Shown here: piece after piece, positions 183-8,663 of the stretch
Layout: each line of letters opens with the position of its first letter
Numbering within the stretch: the stretch's first letter is position 1
Assembly (NCBI GenBank): GCA_017429695.1
Contig: JAFROK010000027.1
Span: 1-40,692, forward strand
From: Clostridia bacterium
GTDB taxonomy: Bacteria > Bacillota > Clostridia > Christensenellales > Aristaeellaceae
Reading direction: 5' to 3'
Length of the DNA stretch: 40,692 nucleotides
Position numbers and translations under genes: made by a program
The notes under the pieces: model-generated
Told to the model about the DNA's origin: nothing
Databases searched by the model: none
What the model saw: the letters and a program-made list of their open reading frames with translations, nothing else

Positions 183-2192
183 TTACTCTTCCGCCGGAAT
201 AAGCCGAATAATATCCTTAAAAGGCATCAACATCGCATCACATTCCTGAGCCCGATGATTCTCCAAAATAATCTCCGCCGCCTTCTGCATAGCCGGCACC
301 TCAGCCCGCATCAACTGATTCGCATAAATAATAATATTAGCTCCTCTCTTTTTCCACTCTTCCTCCGTCACCGAGTTAAAGCTCGTCGGCACCAAAACAA
401 TAGGCGTCGTCTTATCCTTCCCCCGGAACTTCTCAATAAACTCCTGAATCTCCCCCGGATCCTTCTTCCGGCTGTGGATCATAATGGCATCCGCCCCTGC
501 TTCCACAAAAGCAAACGCCCGCTCCAGCGCGTCCTCCATCCCTCTTTCCAGAATCAAGCTCTCAATCCGCGCGCAGATCATAAACTCCTTCGTCCGCTGC
601 GCCTTCTTCCCGGCCCTTATCTTCGCCGAGAAGTTCTCAATGCTGTCCTGGGTTTGAACGACCTCAGTCCCGAACAGGCTGTTCTTCTTCAGCCCGGTCT
701 TGTCCTCAATAATCACCATGCTCACGCCCAGCCGTTCCAGGCTCCGCACGGTATACACAAAGTGCTCCGTCTTCCCGCCGGTATCCCCGTCAAAGATAAT
801 CGGCTTCGTGGTCACCTCGGTAATATCCTCAATCGTCCGGAACCGGCTCGTCATGTCCACCAGCTCAATGTCCGGCTTCCCCTTCGCCGTGCTGTCGCAA
901 AGGCTGCTCACCCACATCCCGTCAAACTGGTGCGCGCCGCCGTCCTGGTGCACCACGGTATTCTCCACAATTAGTCCGGTCAGCCCGTCGTGGGCCTCCA
1001 TCACCGTCACCAGCCCCTTGGCTTCCAGCACCCGCTTCAGCCGGCCCCGCCGGATATCCGGCATTGCCAGGTCGCTCCGCGTCCTGGCGTCAATCTCCTT
1101 GTATTTCGGGTCGTTGGAATAGGGATATTCCACCAGCTTCCCGCCGTAGCTTGCCAGAATCGCTTCCACTTCATCCCTTATCGGCTTCTGGAACCCACTG
1201 CACCAGTCGTCTCCGTGCACAACATAATCCGGCTTAATCTCTTCCAGCACCGCCTTATAGCTCAGCGTCTGCTGCTCCACAACCTTGTATACCCCGGCCA
1301 CGTTCTCAAACATAACCTTCCGCTCGCTGGCCGGCACCAGCGGGAACCGCTTGTAGCTGGCCACCGCCGCATCGCTCAGCACGCCGACGATCAGCTTCCC
1401 CATCTTCTGGGCCTTTTTGATAATCGCGATATGTCCCCCATGGATAATATCCGATGAGAAGCACATATAAACCGTTCGTGCTTCAATCTCCTTCAGCTTC
1501 GCCGAAACGACCGCCAGGTCATCCGGATTGTCAATCTCCGCGCACAGCTGGTCCTGAACATCCAGGGCATAAATATTCGCCCCGCCGTTCAGCTCATTCA
1601 GCGCGTTCTCGGCATATACCTTCGTGTTTCCCGCCTCGCAGAATTCACAGATCTTTCCCAGCCAAACCTGCCAGTCTGCCTTCTTCAGCTTGTAAAGGGC
1701 CTGGGCTTCCATCGCCTCGTCAAAGATATCCACCCCAACCCGCATCACCATGCCGTTTTTCACCTGGGCCTTGAAATCCTTCTCCGGCAGCGGCAGCGTG
1801 GAGGATACCGTCATGCAGCTCCCCTCAAAAGCCAGCGCCTGGTCCAGCACGGAATTTTCAAACACCAGGTCCCCGTGCATCAGCAGGATATCGTCCTCCA
1901 GGTATTCCCGTGCGCAGTAAATGGAATAGATATAGTTCGTCTTGTCATAGATCGGGTTTTTCACAAATGTAAACGAAAGCGGTAAATCGAGACTTTCGCA
2001 GTATTCCGTCAGCACCCGGTCAAACAGCCCGGTGGTAATTACCACCTCCTGAATCCCAGCGTCCGCCACCTGCTGCAGCTGCCGGGAAAGGATCGTCTCC
2101 CGGGGACTGATCTCCGTCATGCACTTCGGATGCTCGCTGGTCAGAACCCCCATCCGGGATCCCAGGCCGGAATTCAGAATCAATGCTTTCAT
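183..2192 (-). CDS. pepM: Trifunctional phosphonate enzyme: NTP transferase + cytidylyltransferase + PEP mutase
   Basis: This 669-residue protein has three domains. Residues 1-235 are a MobA/PntC-like sugar or aminophosphonate nucleotidyltransferase (GLGSRM at 9-14, PK at 22-23, HGD at 106-108). Residues 240-375 are a TagD-like cytidylyltransferase with HGGH at 251-254. Residues 390-650 are a phosphoenolpyruvate mutase with the Mg-binding DGD (468-470) and the family motif EDKTGLKKNS (496-505). PEP mutase converts PEP to phosphonopyruvate, the entry step to C-P compounds. The two transferase domains probably activate the phosphonate, or an alcohol or amine head group, as a CMP derivative for attachment to a surface polymer. 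Phosphonopyruvate decarboxylase and the aminotransferase that normally follow are not visible. They could lie left of the window, which is downstream of this gene. The domain calls are firm; the final substrate is inference. Confidence 0.9.
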   Translation of the reverse strand: MKALILNSGLGSRMGVLTSEHPKCMTEISPRETILSRQLQQVADAGIQEVVITTGLFDRVLTEYCESLDLPLSFTFVKNPIYDKTNYIYSIYCAREYLEDDILLMHGDLVFENSVLDQALAFEGSCMTVSSTLPLPEKDFKAQVKNGMVMRVGVDIFDEAMEAQALYKLKKADWQVWLGKICEFCEAGNTKVYAENALNELNGGANIYALDVQDQLCAEIDNPDDLAVVSAKLKEIEARTVYMCFSSDIIHGGHIAIIKKAQKMGKLIVGVLSDAAVASYKRFPLVPASERKVMFENVAGVYKVVEQQTLSYKAVLEEIKPDYVVHGDDWCSGFQKPIRDEVEAILASYGGKLVEYPYSNDPKYKEIDARTRSDLAMPDIRRGRLKRVLEAKGLVTVMEAHDGLTGLIVENTVVHQDGGAHQFDGMWVSSLCDSTAKGKPDIELVDMTSRFRTIEDITEVTTKPIIFDGDTGGKTEHFVYTVRSLERLGVSMVIIEDKTGLKKNSLFGTEVVQTQDSIENFSAKIRAGKKAQRTKEFMICARIESLILERGMEDALERAFAFVEAGADAIMIHSRKKDPGEIQEFIEKFRGKDKTTPIVLVPTSFNSVTEEEWKKRGANIIIYANQLMRAEVPAMQKAAEIILENHRAQECDAMLMPFKDIIRLIPAEE

Positions 2193-2239
2193 GCTTTGCC
2201 TCTTTCCTGTGAAGTCAATCTTTCAACATTACCAGTATA

Positions 2240-2668
2240 TCATATCTTTAAATGTTTTTGTCGATATATCTCCACCAAATCATCAATCGCCATTTCCGGA
2301 CTCATCGTATGGAACATCAGATAATTATGTTCCATGATTTCTGCCGGAGCAATCCTGTAAATTGCTTTACTGTTCTCATTTTTGTAGTAGTGCCAGTATC
2401 GATAGATGTACCCGATCCAGAACATCATGTCGCGCCCAAACTGCTTATTGGATGTAATCAGAAAGTCTCTCTTTTCAGCAACCAGTTCTTCCAATAAATA
2501 CTCTTCCCCAGCCCATTGCATTCTGTTATAAACAGAATCCAGATCTTCTGCTACCGAAGATGTCATAAAGGCTTTGATAAATGATTTGCTGTCAAACCCA
2601 GCATTCAAAGACAGCTCAAACAGACGTCCTTGAATATCACACAGTTTCAGCTGTAAACTGTCCATCAT
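2240..2668 (-). CDS. Small protein coupled to the ART-like gene, putative antitoxin or partner
   Basis: The 142-residue soluble protein is mostly helical and has no signal peptide. Its start codon overlaps the stop of the upstream XRE-ART gene by 4 bp (ATGA), a typical translational coupling. The N-terminal 60 residues loosely resemble DUF3791-type proteins, which often sit next to DUF3990 genes, but I cannot confirm membership. The C-terminal half contains a repeated-looking acidic-hydrophobic pattern (EIMEHNYLMFHTMSPEMAIDD). Its position suggests it neutralises, or is a substrate or partner of, the ADP-ribosyltransferase-like protein. The region is visibly more AT-rich than the PEP mutase gene, consistent with a transferred module. 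The function is inferred from context only. Confidence 0.7.
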   Translation of the reverse strand: MMDSLQLKLCDIQGRLFELSLNAGFDSKSFIKAFMTSSVAEDLDSVYNRMQWAGEEYLLEELVAEKRDFLITSNKQFGRDMMFWIGYIYRYWHYYKNENSKAIYRIAPAEIMEHNYLMFHTMSPEMAIDDLVEIYRQKHLKI

Positions 2669-3543
2669 TTTGCCCCCCTGTGAGCTTCTTCCAGGATCTC
2701 ATCGAAAAAGCGCCCATCTCGCCGATGTTTCCGGCAGATATCATTGGCAAGAGAAATACCTTCTGCCCGATTTTGTGCACTGATCTCCTGTAAACACTTT
2801 CGTTCCAGGAAAGAAAAGGGGATTTCTGCTTCAATATTAAGTTGATCACAGGCCTTCTGCGTGATACATACATACTGCTGTCCCAGCTTCAATGCCGCCA
2901 GGCTCTGTACCAGCGCGGTATCTGTAATGGTTCCCTGAAAGAAATTGTCCAGCACGACAAACATACGATCATTGGCTATATAGCCGATGATCACATCAAA
3001 TCCTTCTGCCATTTTCTGATACTTTTCATAGAAAGCTGTCCCTTGAATATCTTCCATCTTTCCGCGATGATAAGCAACCAGCATGGCCCATTCAATATCA
3101 GCCTGGATATTCAGTATCTTCAGCCCTTTTAAATCCAGGGACACCACATAGAACTTTGACTTTTCAAAATCACAAATCAGCGTTAAAGGCTGCAGCGGAT
3201 CCGTTCCCAGATAAAATCCTTTTCCAAAGTCGCAGTGTGTCCGGCTGACAGGTGCGATTTTTCCGCTCAGTCCGGACTTGGATCCATGATACAAAACAAT
3301 TCTGTTTTTATTTTCTCTTGATACCTTTTCAACTTCATTTCTGATTTTTAGATCGATAATATGATTCAAAGAAATATGATATTCCTTGCAAAAATCAAAT
3401 AACCTGTTCTGCGCAAGCTGATTCGGATAGGATCGGCCGTTTTCCCAACGGTTCACAGTAGCAAATGACACGCCCATATAATCCGCAAGCTGCTGCTGGC
3501 TGATTCCTGCCACATTGCGAATCTGTCTGATAATCCATTCCAT
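2665..3543 (-). CDS. XRE-type HTH fused to DUF3990 (ADP-ribosyltransferase-like) domain
   Basis: Using the ATG at 3543 gives 292 residues. That codon follows a GGAG ribosome site by 8 bases and sits directly at the helix-turn-helix; a longer frame reaching 3666 would run through the promoter and terminator and is unlikely. Residues 1-55 are a Cro/CI helix-turn-helix (SQQQLADYMGVSFATVNRWE at 15-34). Residues 82-290 match DUF3990, with LYHGS at 84-88 and FGKGFYLGTD at 106-115, resembling the NAD-binding histidine and tyrosine motifs of H-Y-E type ADP-ribosyltransferases. DUF3990 proteins are commonly found in toxin-antitoxin-like pairs. Fusing the DNA-binding domain to the putative toxin suggests autoregulation from the promoter just upstream. 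Enzymatic activity is a prediction. Confidence 0.8.
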   Translation of the reverse strand: MEWIIRQIRNVAGISQQQLADYMGVSFATVNRWENGRSYPNQLAQNRLFDFCKEYHISLNHIIDLKIRNEVEKVSRENKNRIVLYHGSKSGLSGKIAPVSRTHCDFGKGFYLGTDPLQPLTLICDFEKSKFYVVSLDLKGLKILNIQADIEWAMLVAYHRGKMEDIQGTAFYEKYQKMAEGFDVIIGYIANDRMFVVLDNFFQGTITDTALVQSLAALKLGQQYVCITQKACDQLNIEAEIPFSFLERKCLQEISAQNRAEGISLANDICRKHRRDGRFFDEILEEAHRGAK

Positions 3544-3579
3544 CCCGATCACTCCGATTATAACATTTCGCCTACCCAG

Positions 3580-3608
3580 ATTATATAATTTGTTATGTGA
3601 TGCGTCAA
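3580..3608 (-). promoter_or_regulatory. Sigma-A-type promoter of the XRE-ART module
   Basis: On the minus strand there is TTGACG (3608-3603), a 17-bp spacer, then TATAAT (3585-3580). This is close to the sigma70/sigma-A consensus. It lies about 37 bases upstream of the chosen ATG at 3543. A second TATAAT occurs nearer the start codon but lacks a convincing -35. The XRE domain of the first gene is a plausible autorepressor. Confidence 0.75.
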
Positions 3609-3611
3609 TAT

Positions 3612-3640
3612 ACAAAACGGGGAAACCATCTGTTTCCCCG
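3612..3640 (-). terminator. Rho-independent terminator of the ATPase operon
   Basis: A perfect 9-bp stem, CGGGGAAAC (3618-3626) with GTTTCCCCG (3632-3640), has a 5-base loop. On the minus strand it is followed by TTTTGTA. It lies 30 bases after the stop codon of the gene at 3670 and just before the promoter of the XRE-ART module, so it separates the two transcription units. Confidence 0.85.
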
Positions 3641-3669
3641 TCAAAACCTGAATATGTGCAATTCACTCT

Positions 3670-4869
3670 TCACTCCGGCAGCTCCGGCACATCCTCTTCC
3701 TCAAAGCTTTCTTTTCCCAGTTCAGTAATTCGGATCTTCCCGGCTTCTCCATACTGATACAGCTGATCCAGCAGTTCAATCGCCGCCCGGATCCGGGTAC
3801 GCAGCAGATATCCCCCGCCTTCCGTCGCCGCATAGATTCTTTCCGGCGCCACTTTAGGCTGCCAGTCATATGCCATGCCATGGAATTCCTGAATGCTTTC
3901 CATAACGCGCAGAATTTCTTCCTTGGTCAGCGATGCCAGTTCCGGAGCATTTATTATCAGGTTCAGCGTTCCCTTCGCCGCCTTCATTGATGCGGCATCT
4001 TCCGCAAATATCGCTTCCACATTTTCAAACTCATGCTTTTTGTCAATCACATCTTCTGTAAAAGAACTGCTGAAAGCAAACAGGGAGAAAACACCTTCCA
4101 GCCTGGCCGATGGCTGCAGAAATTCCTGCATACCACGATAGCTCTTTGCCCTTGCCTTCTTTCCAAGCCGACCAATTAACTCAGCTTCGTCAAAGAGAAT
4201 CACCCATCCATCCAGGCCTGTCCGGCGGAAGAGTGTGCTCATAAAGGCAAAATAATCCATGCAATGCTTTGTTTTTGAAAAGCTTTGATTGAACTGGGCG
4301 GGTTTTCCCGTCACTCTCCGGAAGCTCTTCTTGACCATCGCGTCGGAAACAAAGTCACCTTCCAGGTCTCCCAAAAACAGTGTCTTCTCTTCTTCATCCT
4401 GCGACCCCCAGAGCGCTTTCAGCAAATGGTAAATCTTGTTTGTCTCCAGTCCGGTCGCCGCGTATGCCATCATTTCTCCCGCGGCGCCGCTTCCCGGTGT
4501 CATTTCTTCCAGCATATTCCGGAATCCGGGCTGTTTCTTTCCGGGCAGATAGGTGTTTCCGATAATTCTGGAATAGAGCAGATGAAGCTTGTCCATCGGT
4601 GTTTCCTTGCCAAGGGACACATAGGAAACCGCCATGTTTTCATCCGCCGCAATGCTGAATATCGTATTCAGCATATGCGTCTTCCCTTCACCGTAACTGC
4701 CCTGGAAAAGCATACCGTCCGATCGTCCGCTGTTCCGGACCGTCTCCATTTTATTGCGGATTCGGTTCAGCATCGCCGGTCGCGCTTCGGAAAAATACGC
4801 GCCGACTGCCCTGGAAGGCACGCCGGAACGCAGGGCTTCAATAACATGCATCGCTTCAAAATCAGCCAT
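3670..4869 (-). CDS. BrxD/DUF2791-like P-loop ATPase (candidate defence system)
   Basis: This 399-residue protein begins with the family-typical stretch HVIEALRSGVPSRAVGAYFS. It then has Walker A GSYGEGKT (57-64) and Walker B VILFDEAE (223-230). This pattern fits the BREX ATP-binding protein BrxD / DUF2791 group of AAA-type ATPases, which act with helicases in BREX type 2 and some other anti-phage systems. The C-terminal third (residues 290-399) contains a probable winged-helix or helical tail ending in an acidic stretch. It is the last gene of a three-gene operon: its ATG overlaps the end of the preceding ATPase gene by 8 bp, and a terminator follows. No PglZ, PglX or BrxC homologue is nearby, so this is not a standard BREX locus. 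ATPase assignment is firm; the defence role is inferred. Confidence 0.85.
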   Translation of the reverse strand: MADFEAMHVIEALRSGVPSRAVGAYFSEARPAMLNRIRNKMETVRNSGRSDGMLFQGSYGEGKTHMLNTIFSIAADENMAVSYVSLGKETPMDKLHLLYSRIIGNTYLPGKKQPGFRNMLEEMTPGSGAAGEMMAYAATGLETNKIYHLLKALWGSQDEEEKTLFLGDLEGDFVSDAMVKKSFRRVTGKPAQFNQSFSKTKHCMDYFAFMSTLFRRTGLDGWVILFDEAELIGRLGKKARAKSYRGMQEFLQPSARLEGVFSLFAFSSSFTEDVIDKKHEFENVEAIFAEDAASMKAAKGTLNLIINAPELASLTKEEILRVMESIQEFHGMAYDWQPKVAPERIYAATEGGGYLLRTRIRAAIELLDQLYQYGEAGKIRITELGKESFEEEDVPELPE

Positions 4870-6088
4870 TGTCCCGTCCCCCTTCCATCGTCATGCGGTT
4901 CATCATATAGGGAATCCCCAGCTGGCCAAATGCCGCTCGTTCAATCAGTTCTGATGCCTGCCTTTCGTTTATGGGCAAAGCGCTCATCCCCTGCTGGTTC
5001 ATCTCTCCCGCAAGCTTTTCCGACATCCTGACCAAGACCTCGGGCATATACATTTCTTCCCCATAGCGATCCATATCGACAATATCCGCAAACCGGTTAA
5101 ACCGGGTGCTGACCACCTCATTCTGGACCCGAAGCCACAATGCCTGATAGGATTTCATCCCGGCGTTCTCATTGTCCATCAGTTCCCGGTCAAAGCACAG
5201 CATAAACAGAACATACCGCATGCTGTCGATATCATCAATCAGCTGGCGGATGCTCTCATATGTATCATCCCGCCGTGTCTTGGTATACCGCATCACTTCT
5301 TCGCTGCCACGGTTCAGCAGCGTTTCCAGGTCATCAATGATGACCACCAGGCCTTTTGCGCCGCTCATATGAACCGTCTCGCACAATGACCGCAGCAGAT
5401 GCCGGGCATTGTACTTCGTCACCTGCACAGGCGTCAGCCCGGCCATCCGCAGCTGTGCCGCTTTGATGGTCTTATCTCCGTTCAGCCATGCCAGCAGGAT
5501 CTGCCTGTTGCTGTTTTCCAGCACCGGATAGCCCAGGATTCCGCCTGTCAGCAGCAAACACGCCTGCGCAAATGTATTATCCAACAGGGGATTGCGTGTA
5601 AACAGCTCCCGCAATATATCCCGCAGCGTCTTCTTCGTCATGGCGTCATTTTCACGCCGTTCCGCCAGCAGATCCACAAACTGCTTTCCAGCCGGAATAT
5701 CCTCCGGATCGTAGCCCATCTCCCGGACCACCCGCTCCGCACAACCCTTCAGCAGCATATCCAGGTCAATCTGCCGGATGATACTCAGGTAAACCTCCCG
5801 GAAATCATGCAGCCAGACATCCCGGGCCGAAAAAGACACCGTGAAATATCCGTCCTCTTTACTTTTCAGCTTCATCCATTCGGCAAAATGTGTCTTTCCG
5901 CTTCCGGGATGCCCGGTAATCATTTTAATCTTGCTTCCGCCCGCCGGAATAAACCTTTCCAGGTATTGTTTTTCCCAGAAATCAGCCAGCGAATCCAGTC
6001 CAACAGTTATTTCCTTCAAAACGTCCTCATTCACCGGCGTTTTTCCATCCCTCAGCATATATGCTGCCTGTTCCCGATTCATCTCCAT
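4862..6088 (-). CDS. Second P-loop ATPase, divergent BREX-type ATP-binding protein
   Basis: The 408-residue protein has Walker A GHPGSGKT (59-66) and Walker B LVVIIDDLE (247-255), followed by a segment rich in arginine (TRRDDTYESIRQLIDD). The overall plan resembles the downstream ATPase, but the two are clearly different in sequence. They probably form a hetero-complex or act in relay, as paired ATPases do in several defence systems. The N-terminal 55 residues, before the P-loop, may be a docking region. Translation probably starts at 6088, where AAGGAG lies 12 bases upstream; a second in-frame ATG two codons later is also possible. A 53-bp gap separates it from the upstream coiled-coil gene, so one transcript is likely. 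Confidence 0.8.
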   Translation of the reverse strand: MEMNREQAAYMLRDGKTPVNEDVLKEITVGLDSLADFWEKQYLERFIPAGGSKIKMITGHPGSGKTHFAEWMKLKSKEDGYFTVSFSARDVWLHDFREVYLSIIRQIDLDMLLKGCAERVVREMGYDPEDIPAGKQFVDLLAERRENDAMTKKTLRDILRELFTRNPLLDNTFAQACLLLTGGILGYPVLENSNRQILLAWLNGDKTIKAAQLRMAGLTPVQVTKYNARHLLRSLCETVHMSGAKGLVVIIDDLETLLNRGSEEVMRYTKTRRDDTYESIRQLIDDIDSMRYVLFMLCFDRELMDNENAGMKSYQALWLRVQNEVVSTRFNRFADIVDMDRYGEEMYMPEVLVRMSEKLAGEMNQQGMSALPINERQASELIERAAFGQLGIPYMMNRMTMEGGRDNG

Positions 6089-6141
6089 CGCGGTTGTCCC
6101 GTCTCCTTATTGGTTCGTTCGGTAATCGCTTTTATTCTCTG

Positions 6142-6930
6142 TTATTCTTCCGTGTTCAGCAGATACAGTGTGCTGATATACGATTCAACGCCGGTGCTGC
6201 TTAAGACGCGGATCCCGCTTCCATCATGGCTGGTTCCAAACTTATACCGTGCCCCTGTCTTGGATGCCCAGTTTTCCGGCCCTGCCTCATATGCCCTGGA
6301 AAGATCAAACGCAAATGCCTGCATGTCATATTCCTTGCGGGCGCGGGCCATCAGCGCCAGGTTTTTATAGATCTTTGTCAGCGCCTGGGTCGATCCGATC
6401 CTCGCGCCGGACCGCAGGCATGTAATCTCATACGCCTCTCCCAGCTCCGTCATAAACGCGGCCACATTAAATTTGGCGGCAAACAGTTTTTCCTGGCCGG
6501 TCCGGACCGTCTCCGCCACATACTCCGGCCGGCAGCTCTGTACCTTTTTGCGGTCCATCCATACCTCTCCGGGACGTTCGTCATCTCCCACCACCCGGAT
6601 TTTGTACGGAAACATTTCATATACGCCTTTTTCACCCTTGACGTCAATTCCCTTTTTCTCGCAGCTCTCCAGCAGCTGCCTCGTAAAATCTCCGCTCACA
6701 AAGTAATTCTGAACGTCAAATCCTTCCACCTGTTCCCGCAGCGCTTCCGTCTGAACGTTCAGCATATCTGCCGCTTCTTTCAGCGCCGCCAGTTGCTTCC
6801 GGACCTCTGTCAGGTTCCCCAGTTCCAGGTTCTTCTGAATCTTTTTCTGTGCGCTTACCGTTGATCCTGAAAGGTCTTTAATCCCCTTTACCGGGCTTTT
6901 CAGTTCTTCCAGCAGTGTTTCATAATTCAT
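6142..6930 (-). CDS. Unrecognised coiled-coil protein, first gene of the ATPase operon
   Basis: I do not recognise this 262-residue family. Residues 20-75 form a predicted coiled coil with regular heptad-like leucines (LGNLTEVRKQLAALKEAADM). The remainder looks like a mixed alpha/beta globular domain. No transmembrane segment, signal peptide or nuclease motif is apparent. It is the promoter-proximal gene, preceded by a good promoter (6984-7012) and a GGGGG ribosome site. In Shango-type systems an ATPase and a helicase work with a TerB-domain protein; this protein occupies the equivalent slot, but I see no TerB signature. It could be the sensor, adaptor or effector of the system. Function unknown. 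Confidence 0.75.
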   Translation of the reverse strand: MNYETLLEELKSPVKGIKDLSGSTVSAQKKIQKNLELGNLTEVRKQLAALKEAADMLNVQTEALREQVEGFDVQNYFVSGDFTRQLLESCEKKGIDVKGEKGVYEMFPYKIRVVGDDERPGEVWMDRKKVQSCRPEYVAETVRTGQEKLFAAKFNVAAFMTELGEAYEITCLRSGARIGSTQALTKIYKNLALMARARKEYDMQAFAFDLSRAYEAGPENWASKTGARYKFGTSHDGSGIRVLSSTGVESYISTLYLLNTEE

Positions 6931-6983
6931 CGTTTGTTTTCCCCCGTTTCAGGCAAAGTGTTTTACGCCTCTTTTCAAGTTTC

Positions 6984-7012
6984 ATTATATAGTTCCGGAT
7001 ATATTCAGGCAA
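6984..7012 (-). promoter_or_regulatory. Promoter of the leftward ATPase operon
   Basis: On the minus strand, TTGCCT (7012-7007) is followed by a 17-bp spacer and TATAAT (6989-6984). The -10 is perfect and the -35 has four of six consensus bases. It lies 54 bases upstream of the ATG at 6930, back to back with the helicase promoter, so both halves of the system could be co-regulated from this 197-bp region. Confidence 0.7.
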
Positions 7013-7060
7013 CCATTTTACCTGCCTTTTTTGCCCTTACCCGTCTTTTTTCTGCTTTTC

Positions 7061-7089
7061 TTGTCATCCTTCCGTTCCCATGCTATGAT
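7061..7089 (+). promoter_or_regulatory. Promoter of the rightward helicase gene
   Basis: TTGTCA (7061-7066), a 17-bp spacer and TATGAT (7084-7089) form a good sigma-A-type promoter. The start codon at 7128 follows, with an AAAGGAAG ribosome site (7112-7119). Confidence 0.7.
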
Positions 7090-7127
7090 AATCCCGTGAG
7101 TAAAACCAGAGAAAGGAAGAGCGCCGT

Positions 7128-8663
7128 ATGAAACCGTACGCCTGGCAGCAGGAATGCCTTCATGCTTGGGAAGCCGTCCGCTTCCGGGGTATCGCCCATG
7201 TCGTCACCGGCGCCGGAAAAACCTTTCTCGCTTCAAACGCAATTGATCTGTATTTGTCCCGCTTTCCGGACGCCCGGATCAAAATCGTCGTCCCTACCAT
7301 TCCGCTGGCCCGTCAGTGGCAGCTGTCATTGCTCCATCATTTTGATGATCCCCTTCTCCGGCCCGGTTTCTTCGGCGGCGGTGTCCGTTCTTCGCCGGAT
7401 CAGCGCGTCATGATCTATATCATCAATTCCGCCCGCGATACGCTTTCCCAACATATCCGGCGGGATTTTTCCCTCGGATATCATGTGCTGCTGATCTGTG
7501 ATGAATGCCATCACTGCCAGAGCCCGCAGAACCGGCATATTTTCGATTTCACATCCTCCTCTTTTGCTTCCGGCAAACAGTATGCTTCCCTGGGGCTTTC
7601 CGCTACCCCCTTCGGAACTGCGGATGACGATATATTACGCCATGCCCTGGGCCCGGAAATCTATCGTTACGATGTCGCCTCCGCGTTGTCGGATGGCATT
7701 GTTTCTCCCTTCTCTGTTTGTGAGGTTGCCGTTTCATTTCTGCCGAAAGAGCGTATAGAATACGATCAGTTGAGCCGTGATTTGGTGCTCCTTCTGGAGA
7801 AATTGCTGAAAGCATATCCTGAACTGAAAAAGCTCCCACCGTCTGCCTTCCTGAAAGCCGTCACAAAAATCGCGTCTACCGCCGGCATGGATCCGGAGAA
7901 CATCGCCGTAGCCTTTCTCCTGAAAACCTGGAAAAGGAAAGAAATCAGCACCCTTGCCTTTTCCCGTATCCTCTGTGCCATATCACTCATTGAACGGCTG
8001 CCGGAAAATGAGCGAATCCTTATTTTTTGCGAACGGATTTCCCAGGCGGAACAGGCAGCCCTTGCGCTGCGAAAGAAATTCGGCAATATCTGTTCCCTGT
8101 ACCATTCAAAAATGACCCATGAAGCCCGCGTCCGCAACCTGTCCGCTTTCCGGAGTAATCAGGTCCGGATTCTGGTCAGTTGCCGCTGCCTGGACGAAGG
8201 GATTGACGTACCGGACGCAACCGTTGGAATTGTCCTCAGCAGCTCTGCCGTAACAAGGCAGCGAATCCAGCGGCTGGGACGGATTCTCCGGCGTTCGGAA
8301 GGAAAAGAATCTGCCACCCTGTATTATCTTTACATTCAGGAATCCGCGGATAATCCGTCATTCCTGCCGGGCCTGGAAGCAGAAAAAGCCATCCCGCTCC
8401 GTTTCCGAACTCCGGAGCAGGATTTTGAAAATGATTTGTATCTCTATGCCGCAAACTGCCTGATGCAGGAAAGCCGGCAGGCCGGCTATACTGATTCCCA
8501 GCTCCGGGAACTTCGTTCCTGCCTGCTGGAAGGCCTTGTCCGGCCGGATTACCTGCTGCCCGTTGATATCCAGACAAAGCAGGCAGCCCAGGCCGCATCC
8601 CGCCATGAACGCAATTACTGGCTGGCAATGAAAAAGCTGTCTGATTTCTTTTCAAAGTCATGA
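7128..8663 (+). CDS. XPB/RAD25-like superfamily 2 DNA helicase (candidate defence system)
   Basis: This compact 511-residue SF2 helicase has Walker A TGAGKT (27-32), the DEAH-box variant DECHH (125-129), motif III SATP (158-161) and motif VI QRIQRLGRILRR (378-389). It matches the ERCC3/XPB-like branch also found in BrxHI- and SngC-type defence helicases. There is no nuclease, methylase or other added domain, so nucleic-acid translocation is probably its only activity. It is the only large rightward gene in the window and is transcribed divergently from the ATPase operon. It converges on rfbC. The divergent pairing with two ATPases of the BREX group is what makes a shared function likely. A housekeeping repair role cannot be excluded. 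Confidence 0.88.
   Translation: MKPYAWQQECLHAWEAVRFRGIAHVVTGAGKTFLASNAIDLYLSRFPDARIKIVVPTIPLARQWQLSLLHHFDDPLLRPGFFGGGVRSSPDQRVMIYIINSARDTLSQHIRRDFSLGYHVLLICDECHHCQSPQNRHIFDFTSSSFASGKQYASLGLSATPFGTADDDILRHALGPEIYRYDVASALSDGIVSPFSVCEVAVSFLPKERIEYDQLSRDLVLLLEKLLKAYPELKKLPPSAFLKAVTKIASTAGMDPENIAVAFLLKTWKRKEISTLAFSRILCAISLIERLPENERILIFCERISQAEQAALALRKKFGNICSLYHSKMTHEARVRNLSAFRSNQVRILVSCRCLDEGIDVPDATVGIVLSSSAVTRQRIQRLGRILRRSEGKESATLYYLYIQESADNPSFLPGLEAEKAIPLRFRTPEQDFENDLYLYAANCLMQESRQAGYTDSQLRELRSCLLEGLVRPDYLLPVDIQTKQAAQAASRHERNYWLAMKKLSDFFSKS

Follow-up and report, generated by a model that had tools for sequence, protein, structure and literature searches.

What two BrxD-like ATPases, a coiled-coil protein and an XPB-like helicase do together is the question raised by one locus of contig JAFROK010000027.1, whose whole analysed stretch of 40,692 nt is referred to here as the window. 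The genes are named ATP1, ATP2, CC (coiled-coil protein) and HEL (helicase); CC, ATP2 and ATP1 are called the triad, and the triad with HEL the cassette. A preliminary description of the window had proposed a four-gene defence system. Genome comparison showed that the four genes are a conserved and co-inherited unit, not a chance arrangement; the core, for its part, proved to be the CC-ATP2-ATP1 triad, found in three phyla with a changing neighbouring motor, and the helicase is exchangeable in distant relatives. That the four genes form one system of defence against invading DNA, with a triad core working like an origin-recognition/helicase-loader machine, is a reading for and against which we see the chances as evenly balanced.

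Conservation and co-inheritance of the cassette in gut clostridia

CC is present in 10 of 200 genomes of the family to which the window belongs and in 3 of the 11 genomes listed for its genus, its own genome being included in both counts. The neighbourhoods of the nine relatives all contain CC, ATP2, ATP1 and HEL, the latter divergent in eight and on the same strand in one. When species genomes were searched with the ATP1 profile, 304 relatives were confirmed; the best 80 of them were kept, a set biased to close kin and including several of the nine family loci. All four genes were found in 69 of these 80 loci; five more are cut by a contig end (L036, L078, L087, L089 and L097), four contain the triad without HEL (L035, L037, L038 and L056), and the remaining two are L082, lacking CC, and L101, with ATP1 and a weak ATP2 only. 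Of the 69 loci, 55 have HEL upstream in divergent orientation, 12 have it upstream and co-oriented with the triad, and two have it downstream; such changes of orientation beside a fixed triad argue for function rather than for a frozen gene order. A HerA/FtsK-like protein of 930 aa is encoded upstream of the HEL-less triad in L035 (positions 3498-6290).

The helicase and the ATPases do not occur independently in the window's family. Among the 200 family genomes, HEL (E ≤ 1e-20) was found in 12 and full-length ATP1 in 10, and these ten are the genomes with CC. The two extra HEL genomes contain decayed copies, namely HEL beside ATP1 in two pieces in G055 and a HEL piece with two stop codons in G155. 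ATP1 hits of 25-29 bits in six more family genomes, which were left unread, are taken for other PF10923 proteins. The co-occurrence has a Fisher p of 2.9e-15, uncorrected for shared ancestry. Over 64 loci, the pairwise distances of the triad members correlate with one another at 0.92-0.95 and with those of HEL at 0.86-0.89, the maximum in 1000 sets of shuffled distances being 0.22; host ancestry was uncontrolled.

The triad core and its changing motors in distant relatives

The CC profile matched 18 of 398 genomes of the phylum, the window's own included. Of the 18 loci beyond the window, 17 contain CC-ATP2-ATP1, and the XPB-like HEL is also present in L122-L125 only; a CC hit of 19 bits, L139, was dropped as a likely chance match. 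A profile including distant members gave matches in 29 of the 113 genomes from the class of G521, at 31 places, of which 25 were fetched, two were already in the set and four were left out; one of the 25 fetched loci, L151, belongs to the XPB type.

Various DNA motors are encoded beside the triad. A superfamily 1 (SF1) helicase of ~870 aa with AAA_11/AAA_12 domains and a Top1 zinc ribbon was found in a cluster of 14 loci, two assigned by Pfam and the others joined by BLAST. An SNF2 helicase together with a small protein is present in L130, L131 and L154, a different SNF2 helicase in L149, and BrxL in L135 and L170. Non-motor neighbours are represented by an Hsp70-like protein in L138 and a DNA methylase in L132. 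No motor was recognised near the triad in L132, L133, L136 and L137, the neighbours of which were scanned in part.

Outside the phylum, two plasmids, pDESTI.01 of Desulfomonile tiedjei (L173) and plasmid3 of Aulosira laxa NIES-50 (L175), each encode CC (52 and 43 bits, respectively), a pair of ATPases and a helicase similar to BrxHI. In Aulosira, the CC-ATP2-ATP1-helicase set directly follows genes for BrxD (552 bits) and BrxHI (929 bits), and the helicase of the set is a BrxHI relative (326 bits). Three further hits are not counted as triads: in Deinococcus L176, which has a BrxD-like gene and a BrxHI/SngC-like helicase, none of the genes tested matched CC; the hit in Azospirillum (H2, L174), with no match to the four profiles among its called frames, was dropped; and the Streptomyces hit H3, annotated as brxD, was left out of the comparison.

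The ATP1 tree was built by a quick method from 58 rows with two BrxD outgroups, without L173 and L175, and is rooted on long branches. The XPB class (with four HEL-less loci inside), the SF1 class and the three SNF2 loci form clades with a Shimodaira-Hasegawa-like approximate likelihood ratio test (SH-aLRT) support of 100. The CRISPR-linked class, which includes L146 and the SNF2 locus L149, has a support of 98, and the BrxL loci with L134 have a support of 96. The fewest partner changes on this tree are five for five states, the possible minimum being four.

Other genes adjoin the triad in these loci. A conserved protein of ~190 aa, with no Pfam family in the two scanned, is encoded between ATP1 and the SNF2 helicase (L130, 11399-11980; L131, 11858-12418; L154, 1869-2441). 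Directly downstream of the triad in L138 (3901-6950), a 437-aa protein without a family and the Hsp70-like protein are encoded. A helix-turn-helix (HTH) protein of 350-420 aa, one family by BLAST, is encoded upstream of CC in L132 (9461-10717), L133 (8985-10058) and L136 (9758-10798); in Desulfomonile, too, CC is preceded by an annotated HTH protein of similar length (L173, 4526-5731).

Triads in CRISPR-Cas operons

In five loci representing subtypes I-D, I-B and I-A, a complete triad is located inside a type I operon, on the operon strand, with effector genes on one side and adaptation genes on the other. The operon of L126 contains Cas10d, Cas7d, Cas5d, Cas3d, the triad, Cas1 and Cas4, with an array of 30 repeats; that of L147 contains Cas3, Cas10_Id (1262 bits), Cas7d (42 bits), Cas5d (485 bits), the triad, Cas1 and Cas4. 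In L127, the order is Cas6, WYL, an unrecognised protein at the Cas8 position, Cas7b, Cas5, Cas3, the triad, Cas1 and Cas4, and L148 contains homologues of the L127 genes, Cas3b, the triad, Cas1 and Cas4, with an array of 46 repeats. L128 is represented by Cas6, WYL, Cas3, Cas8a, DevR/Cas7, Cas5a and the triad, followed by short Cas1/Cas4-matching pieces only. In L129, a Cas6 hit was found at the locus end.

Several cas genes were found in 6 of the 37 CC-family loci outside the XPB type, a raw count with no background rate and with several short contigs among the loci. A CC homologue without ATP1 and ATP2 is encoded in an I-B operon of L162 (9431-10225). No cas gene was recognised in the seven window proteins scanned (183-8663), the right-hand neighbours being outside the scan.

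Genes and proteins of the window cassette

All four reading frames proposed earlier were recovered at the coordinates and lengths given for them (Table 1). The arrangement as a terminated operon with a divergent helicase gene was likewise found: ATP1 is followed by a terminator-like hairpin, and the CC-HEL intergenic region contains two promoter-like sites pointing opposite ways, these signals being consensus matches only. The reading frames of ATP2 and ATP1 share 8 bases, and 53 bases separate CC from ATP2 downstream of it.

Table 1. Genes and putative signals of the cassette in the window
Feature	Position	Strand	Description
Terminator-like hairpin after ATP1	3616..3642	-	11 pairs, then TTGTATATTG; consensus match only
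ATP1	3670..4869	-	BrxD-group AAA+ ATPase, 399 aa; Walker A GSYGEGKTH, Walker B LFDEAE
ATP2	4862..6088	-	Second BrxD-group AAA+ ATPase, 408 aa; Walker A intact
CC	6142..6930	-	262 aa; helical hairpin 3-70 and alpha/beta domain, predicted winged-helix-like fold at the end
Promoter-like site, CC-ATP2-ATP1 operon	6984..7012	-	10/12 matches; consensus match only
Promoter-like site, HEL	7061..7089	+	10/12 matches, TG before second hexamer; consensus match only
HEL	7128..8663	+	XPB-like SF2 (superfamily 2) helicase, 511 aa; no nuclease domain recognised

The assignment of both ATPases as BrxD-like is borne out by matches to PF10923 BrxC_BrxD (ATP1 87.6 bits, ATP2 104.1 bits, cut-off 22.2); with the BrxD equivalog NF033438 they score 54.5 and 102.1 bits, respectively, versus a cut-off of 350. 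PF10923 was not found elsewhere in the own genome (draft, 88% complete). Direct sequence matches of the ATPases to DnaI, DnaA and TnsC are marginal. Walker A and Walker B are legible in both window proteins, and among XPB-type loci, some of them counted twice, the Walker A pattern is present in 84/84 ATP1 and 83/84 ATP2 sequences, the sole exception being the shortened ATP2 of L082. Walker A is lost from ATP2 and kept in ATP1 in the CRISPR-linked loci L126, L127, L128, L129, L147 and L148 and in the SNF2-linked loci L130, L131, L149 and L154, a loss that, by analogy, resembles ATPase rings with inactive subunits. ATP1 of L134, L135 and L170 misses the strict Walker A pattern; in the alignment of L134 and L135, the first glycine alone is absent.

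CC has no Pfam family above the cut-off and no match at E 0.1 in NCBIfam, PADLOC and PHROGs. Together with its sporadic occurrence in the family and in the phylum, this agrees with its description as an unrecognised protein and speaks against a known housekeeping family. The end of CC is predicted to form a winged-helix-like domain: the best fold alignment of the C-terminal part is with the winged helix of the origin recognition complex (ORC); the fold search with whole CC matched the helical hairpin alone and was uninformative. TerB gave no Pfam hit in the seven window proteins scanned, all four cassette proteins included; its absence among the solved folds listed for CC and for the C-terminal part proves nothing.

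HEL matches ResIII, Helicase_C and ERCC3/XPB_C above the Pfam cut-offs, and the solved structures closest by sequence are archaeal XPBII (E 2.4e-42), with RAD25 also among the nearest. Its best PADLOC match is PbeA (194.9 bits), covering positions 252-630 of 672, i.e., the helicase part only; matches to Cas3 are likewise confined to the helicase domain.

Genomic site and surroundings

The flanks of the window-type cassette yielded 226 proteins from 67 loci, of which 130 were drawn and 127 scanned; 121 proteins served as controls. At E 1e-10 or better, flanking proteins matched 152 PADLOC families versus 14 for the controls, a count of families, many of which one protein may match, that shows direction and not rate. 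Among the matches listed for the flanks are GajB, type III methyltransferase, reverse transcriptase, DrmC and Cas1; control families include PDC-S15, a CARF fusion and mad8, and mad3 was found in both sets (five in flanks, three in controls).

In the window, genes for an HTH-DUF3990 protein (weak PARP hit) and a DUF3791 protein, similar to the PADLOC candidates PDC-M13 and PDC-M42, are located at 2240-3666. This toxin-antitoxin-like pair does adjoin the cassette, as noted earlier, but is not part of it, being absent from the matching site of G175 (L017), where the cassette is also located upstream of a phosphoenolpyruvate (PEP) mutase gene. The PEP mutase of the window is part of a 669-aa fusion with sugar nucleotidyltransferase and cytidylyltransferase (183-2192), which suggests phosphonate-decorated surface sugars. 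A PEP mutase gene is present in 25 of 31 same-genus genomes, and the window cassette lies upstream of it. In the 12-15 kb upstream of this gene, cassette genes were found in none of the ten same-genus genomes fetched (L190-L199); their absence there and presence in G175 indicate a variable site.

Proposed function and alternative explanations

A role in defence is suggested by the presence of known defence families near the cassettes of relatives and by the location of distant relatives in CRISPR-Cas operons and beside BREX (bacteriophage exclusion) type 2 genes. The proposal of a defence system is thus supported: helicase and ATPases are not independent in relatives, CC is no known housekeeping family and no named system matches, defence itself being read from genomic context.

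The mechanism that we infer comprises complex formation, helicase loading and phage defence as the outcome. The two BrxD-group (ORC/Cdc6-type) AAA+ ATPases would assemble with CC on invader DNA, CC contributing its own winged-helix-like domain, and ATP turnover by the assembly would load, activate or license a DNA motor. In the window, this motor would be the XPB-like helicase, which would move along or unwind the incoming DNA and keep it from being replicated, either by itself or by making the DNA accessible to nucleases of the host. As none of the four proteins has a recognised nuclease domain, the invader may either be blocked in replication or be left to those host nucleases. Elsewhere, the triad would act with a different motor, namely an SF1, SNF2 or BrxHI-like helicase, BrxL, or the Cas3 of a type I CRISPR-Cas system. 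We favour a loader or licensing complex similar to ORC because the two conserved ATPases and their third subunit, which has the look of a DNA-binding protein, are not bound to any one motor, and because a DNA motor is the recognised neighbour in most lineages, with the same motor kept within each clade. In its widest form, the proposal is that CC-ATP2-ATP1 is an undescribed ORC/Cdc6-like motor-loading module of prokaryotic immunity, which would load Cas3 at Cascade targets (I-D, I-B and I-A), the MCM-like ring BrxL, BrxHI-like, SNF2 and SF1 helicases, and the XPB-like helicase in a stand-alone system of gut clostridia; we put this forward tentatively, as possible but on balance somewhat doubtful. 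Within the loader reading, the triad may instead restrain the motor until invader DNA is sensed, and the genomic data fit loading and restraint alike.

A divergent Shango system, in which CC would replace the TerB protein and the ATPase would be duplicated, is unlikely. Published Shango, according to PMC10250203, consists of a TerB-like protein, an ATPase and a helicase, and both window ATPases match SngB (ATP1 44.9 bits, ATP2 39.3 bits); for the L175 ATP1, the SngB score is slightly above the BrxD score (57.7 versus 54.9), and SngC is matched by the BrxHI-like helicases of L173 and L175 (248 and 259 bits). However, BrxD models outscore SngB for both window ATPases, CC gave no TerB hit in Pfam and its predicted model ends in a winged-helix-like fold, and the window helicase is XPB-like, with SngC outside the best 25 of its 44 PADLOC matches. 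Still less probable is a relative of PbeABCD restricting by DNA phosphorothioation, which we consider very improbable: HEL does match PbeA best in PADLOC, but in the helicase part only; PMC6459918 and PMC10853773 describe PbeA as carrying a PLD/HKD nuclease at its N-terminus and its partners as belonging to other families; and DndC (TIGR03183) was not matched in the draft genome, no search for other dnd genes having been made.

Two explanations outside defence were weighed, and both appear improbable. The cassette could serve to replicate or maintain an integrated mobile element, its ORC-like ATPases, winged-helix protein and helicase acting as an initiator; its parts do resemble those of replication initiation, two distant relatives are on plasmids, and all ten same-genus genomes fetched lack the cassette upstream of their PEP mutase gene. 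Against this, the window ATP1 had no match in 72,556 plasmids, 50,697 phage records and viral contigs, no integrase or relaxase was found above the cut-off in the three left-hand neighbours scanned (right-hand neighbours were outside the scan), and relatives contain the triad inside CRISPR-Cas operons; ATP1 of L132 also had no plasmid match. A module of DNA repair or stress unrelated to invaders, in which accessory ATPases would assist an XPB-like repair helicase, agrees with the proximity of HEL to XPBII and RAD25, but such a role fits poorly with the sporadic occurrence in family and genus, with distant relatives beside Cas3 or BrxL, and with the score of HEL with the XPB repair helicase model NF045503 (60.7 versus a cut-off of 610).

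If the motor-loading reading is correct, one ATPase module is common to CRISPR-Cas, BREX-like and stand-alone systems, and the motor alone differs. A concrete, testable role would follow for the BrxD-type ATPases of BREX and Shango, helicase loading having already been proposed for BREX (PMC12839542). Type I CRISPR interference or adaptation would gain an unsuspected accessory, and helicase loading would be a common, transferable step of bacterial defence. The clostridial cassette, small, with no recognised nuclease and found in named isolates such as Schaedlerella arabinosiphila DSM 106076 (L081) and Parablautia muri (L084), would be a convenient model.

Comparison with known systems

The combination could not be named in the preliminary description, and no named system was found to match it. 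No description of the gene set was found in open PMC papers, supplements and bioRxiv's own preprints excluded, which leaves room for a row of a supplementary table, e.g., among the CRISPR-linked genes of PMC10910872.

The BrxD-BrxHI dyad of BREX type 2 is similar in that a BrxD-group ATPase adjoins an SF2 helicase; the cassette differs in having two ATPases far under the BrxD cut-off, the added CC and an XPB-like helicase. Membership in BREX type 2 was rejected, given the BrxD equivalog scores and PglZ (PF08665), which had no match in the draft genome. The absence of PglZ and TerB remarked on earlier thus agrees with the searches of the genome and of the scanned window proteins, respectively. 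PglX, BrxC and PglW did not appear among the seven scanned window proteins, and the family shared with BrxC, PF10923, had no further match in the draft genome; no genome-wide search for PglX/PglW was made.

With Shango (TerB protein, SngB ATPase and SngC helicase) the cassette shares a compact set of ATPase, helicase and one further protein, but has two ATPases, no TerB hit and a helicase whose best match is not SngC; membership was rejected, no TerB hit having been found in the seven proteins scanned. The likeness to PbeABCD/CxC-DndE is limited to the PbeA helicase domain: the cassette contains no PLD/HKD nuclease domain, ABC ATPase or DndE-like protein, and membership was rejected, only the helicase part being matched and DndC not being found. 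In type I CRISPR-Cas (I-D, I-B and I-A), five loci have relatives of CC, ATP2 and ATP1 located between the effector genes and the adaptation genes, whereas no cas gene was recognised at 183-8663 of the window.

The ORC/Cdc6/Cdt1 loader of eukaryotes and archaea, where ORC-clade AAA+ ATPases with winged helices load a helicase, offers an analogy of working. For the end of CC, the best-aligned fold is an ORC winged helix, and one partner, BrxL, resembles MCM; in the cassette, by contrast, the winged-helix-like domain is on a separate protein, most partners are not similar to replicative helicases, and loading is predicted only. In print, BrxD is proposed as a loader or activator of BrxHI and called ORC-Cdc6 type (PMC12839542); BrxL is described as resembling MCM, and folds of ORC type are reported for further BREX proteins (PMC10164562). 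A BrxD-type ATPase with a helicase is already known from BREX type 2 and Shango; a shared loader with exchangeable motors would be the larger step.

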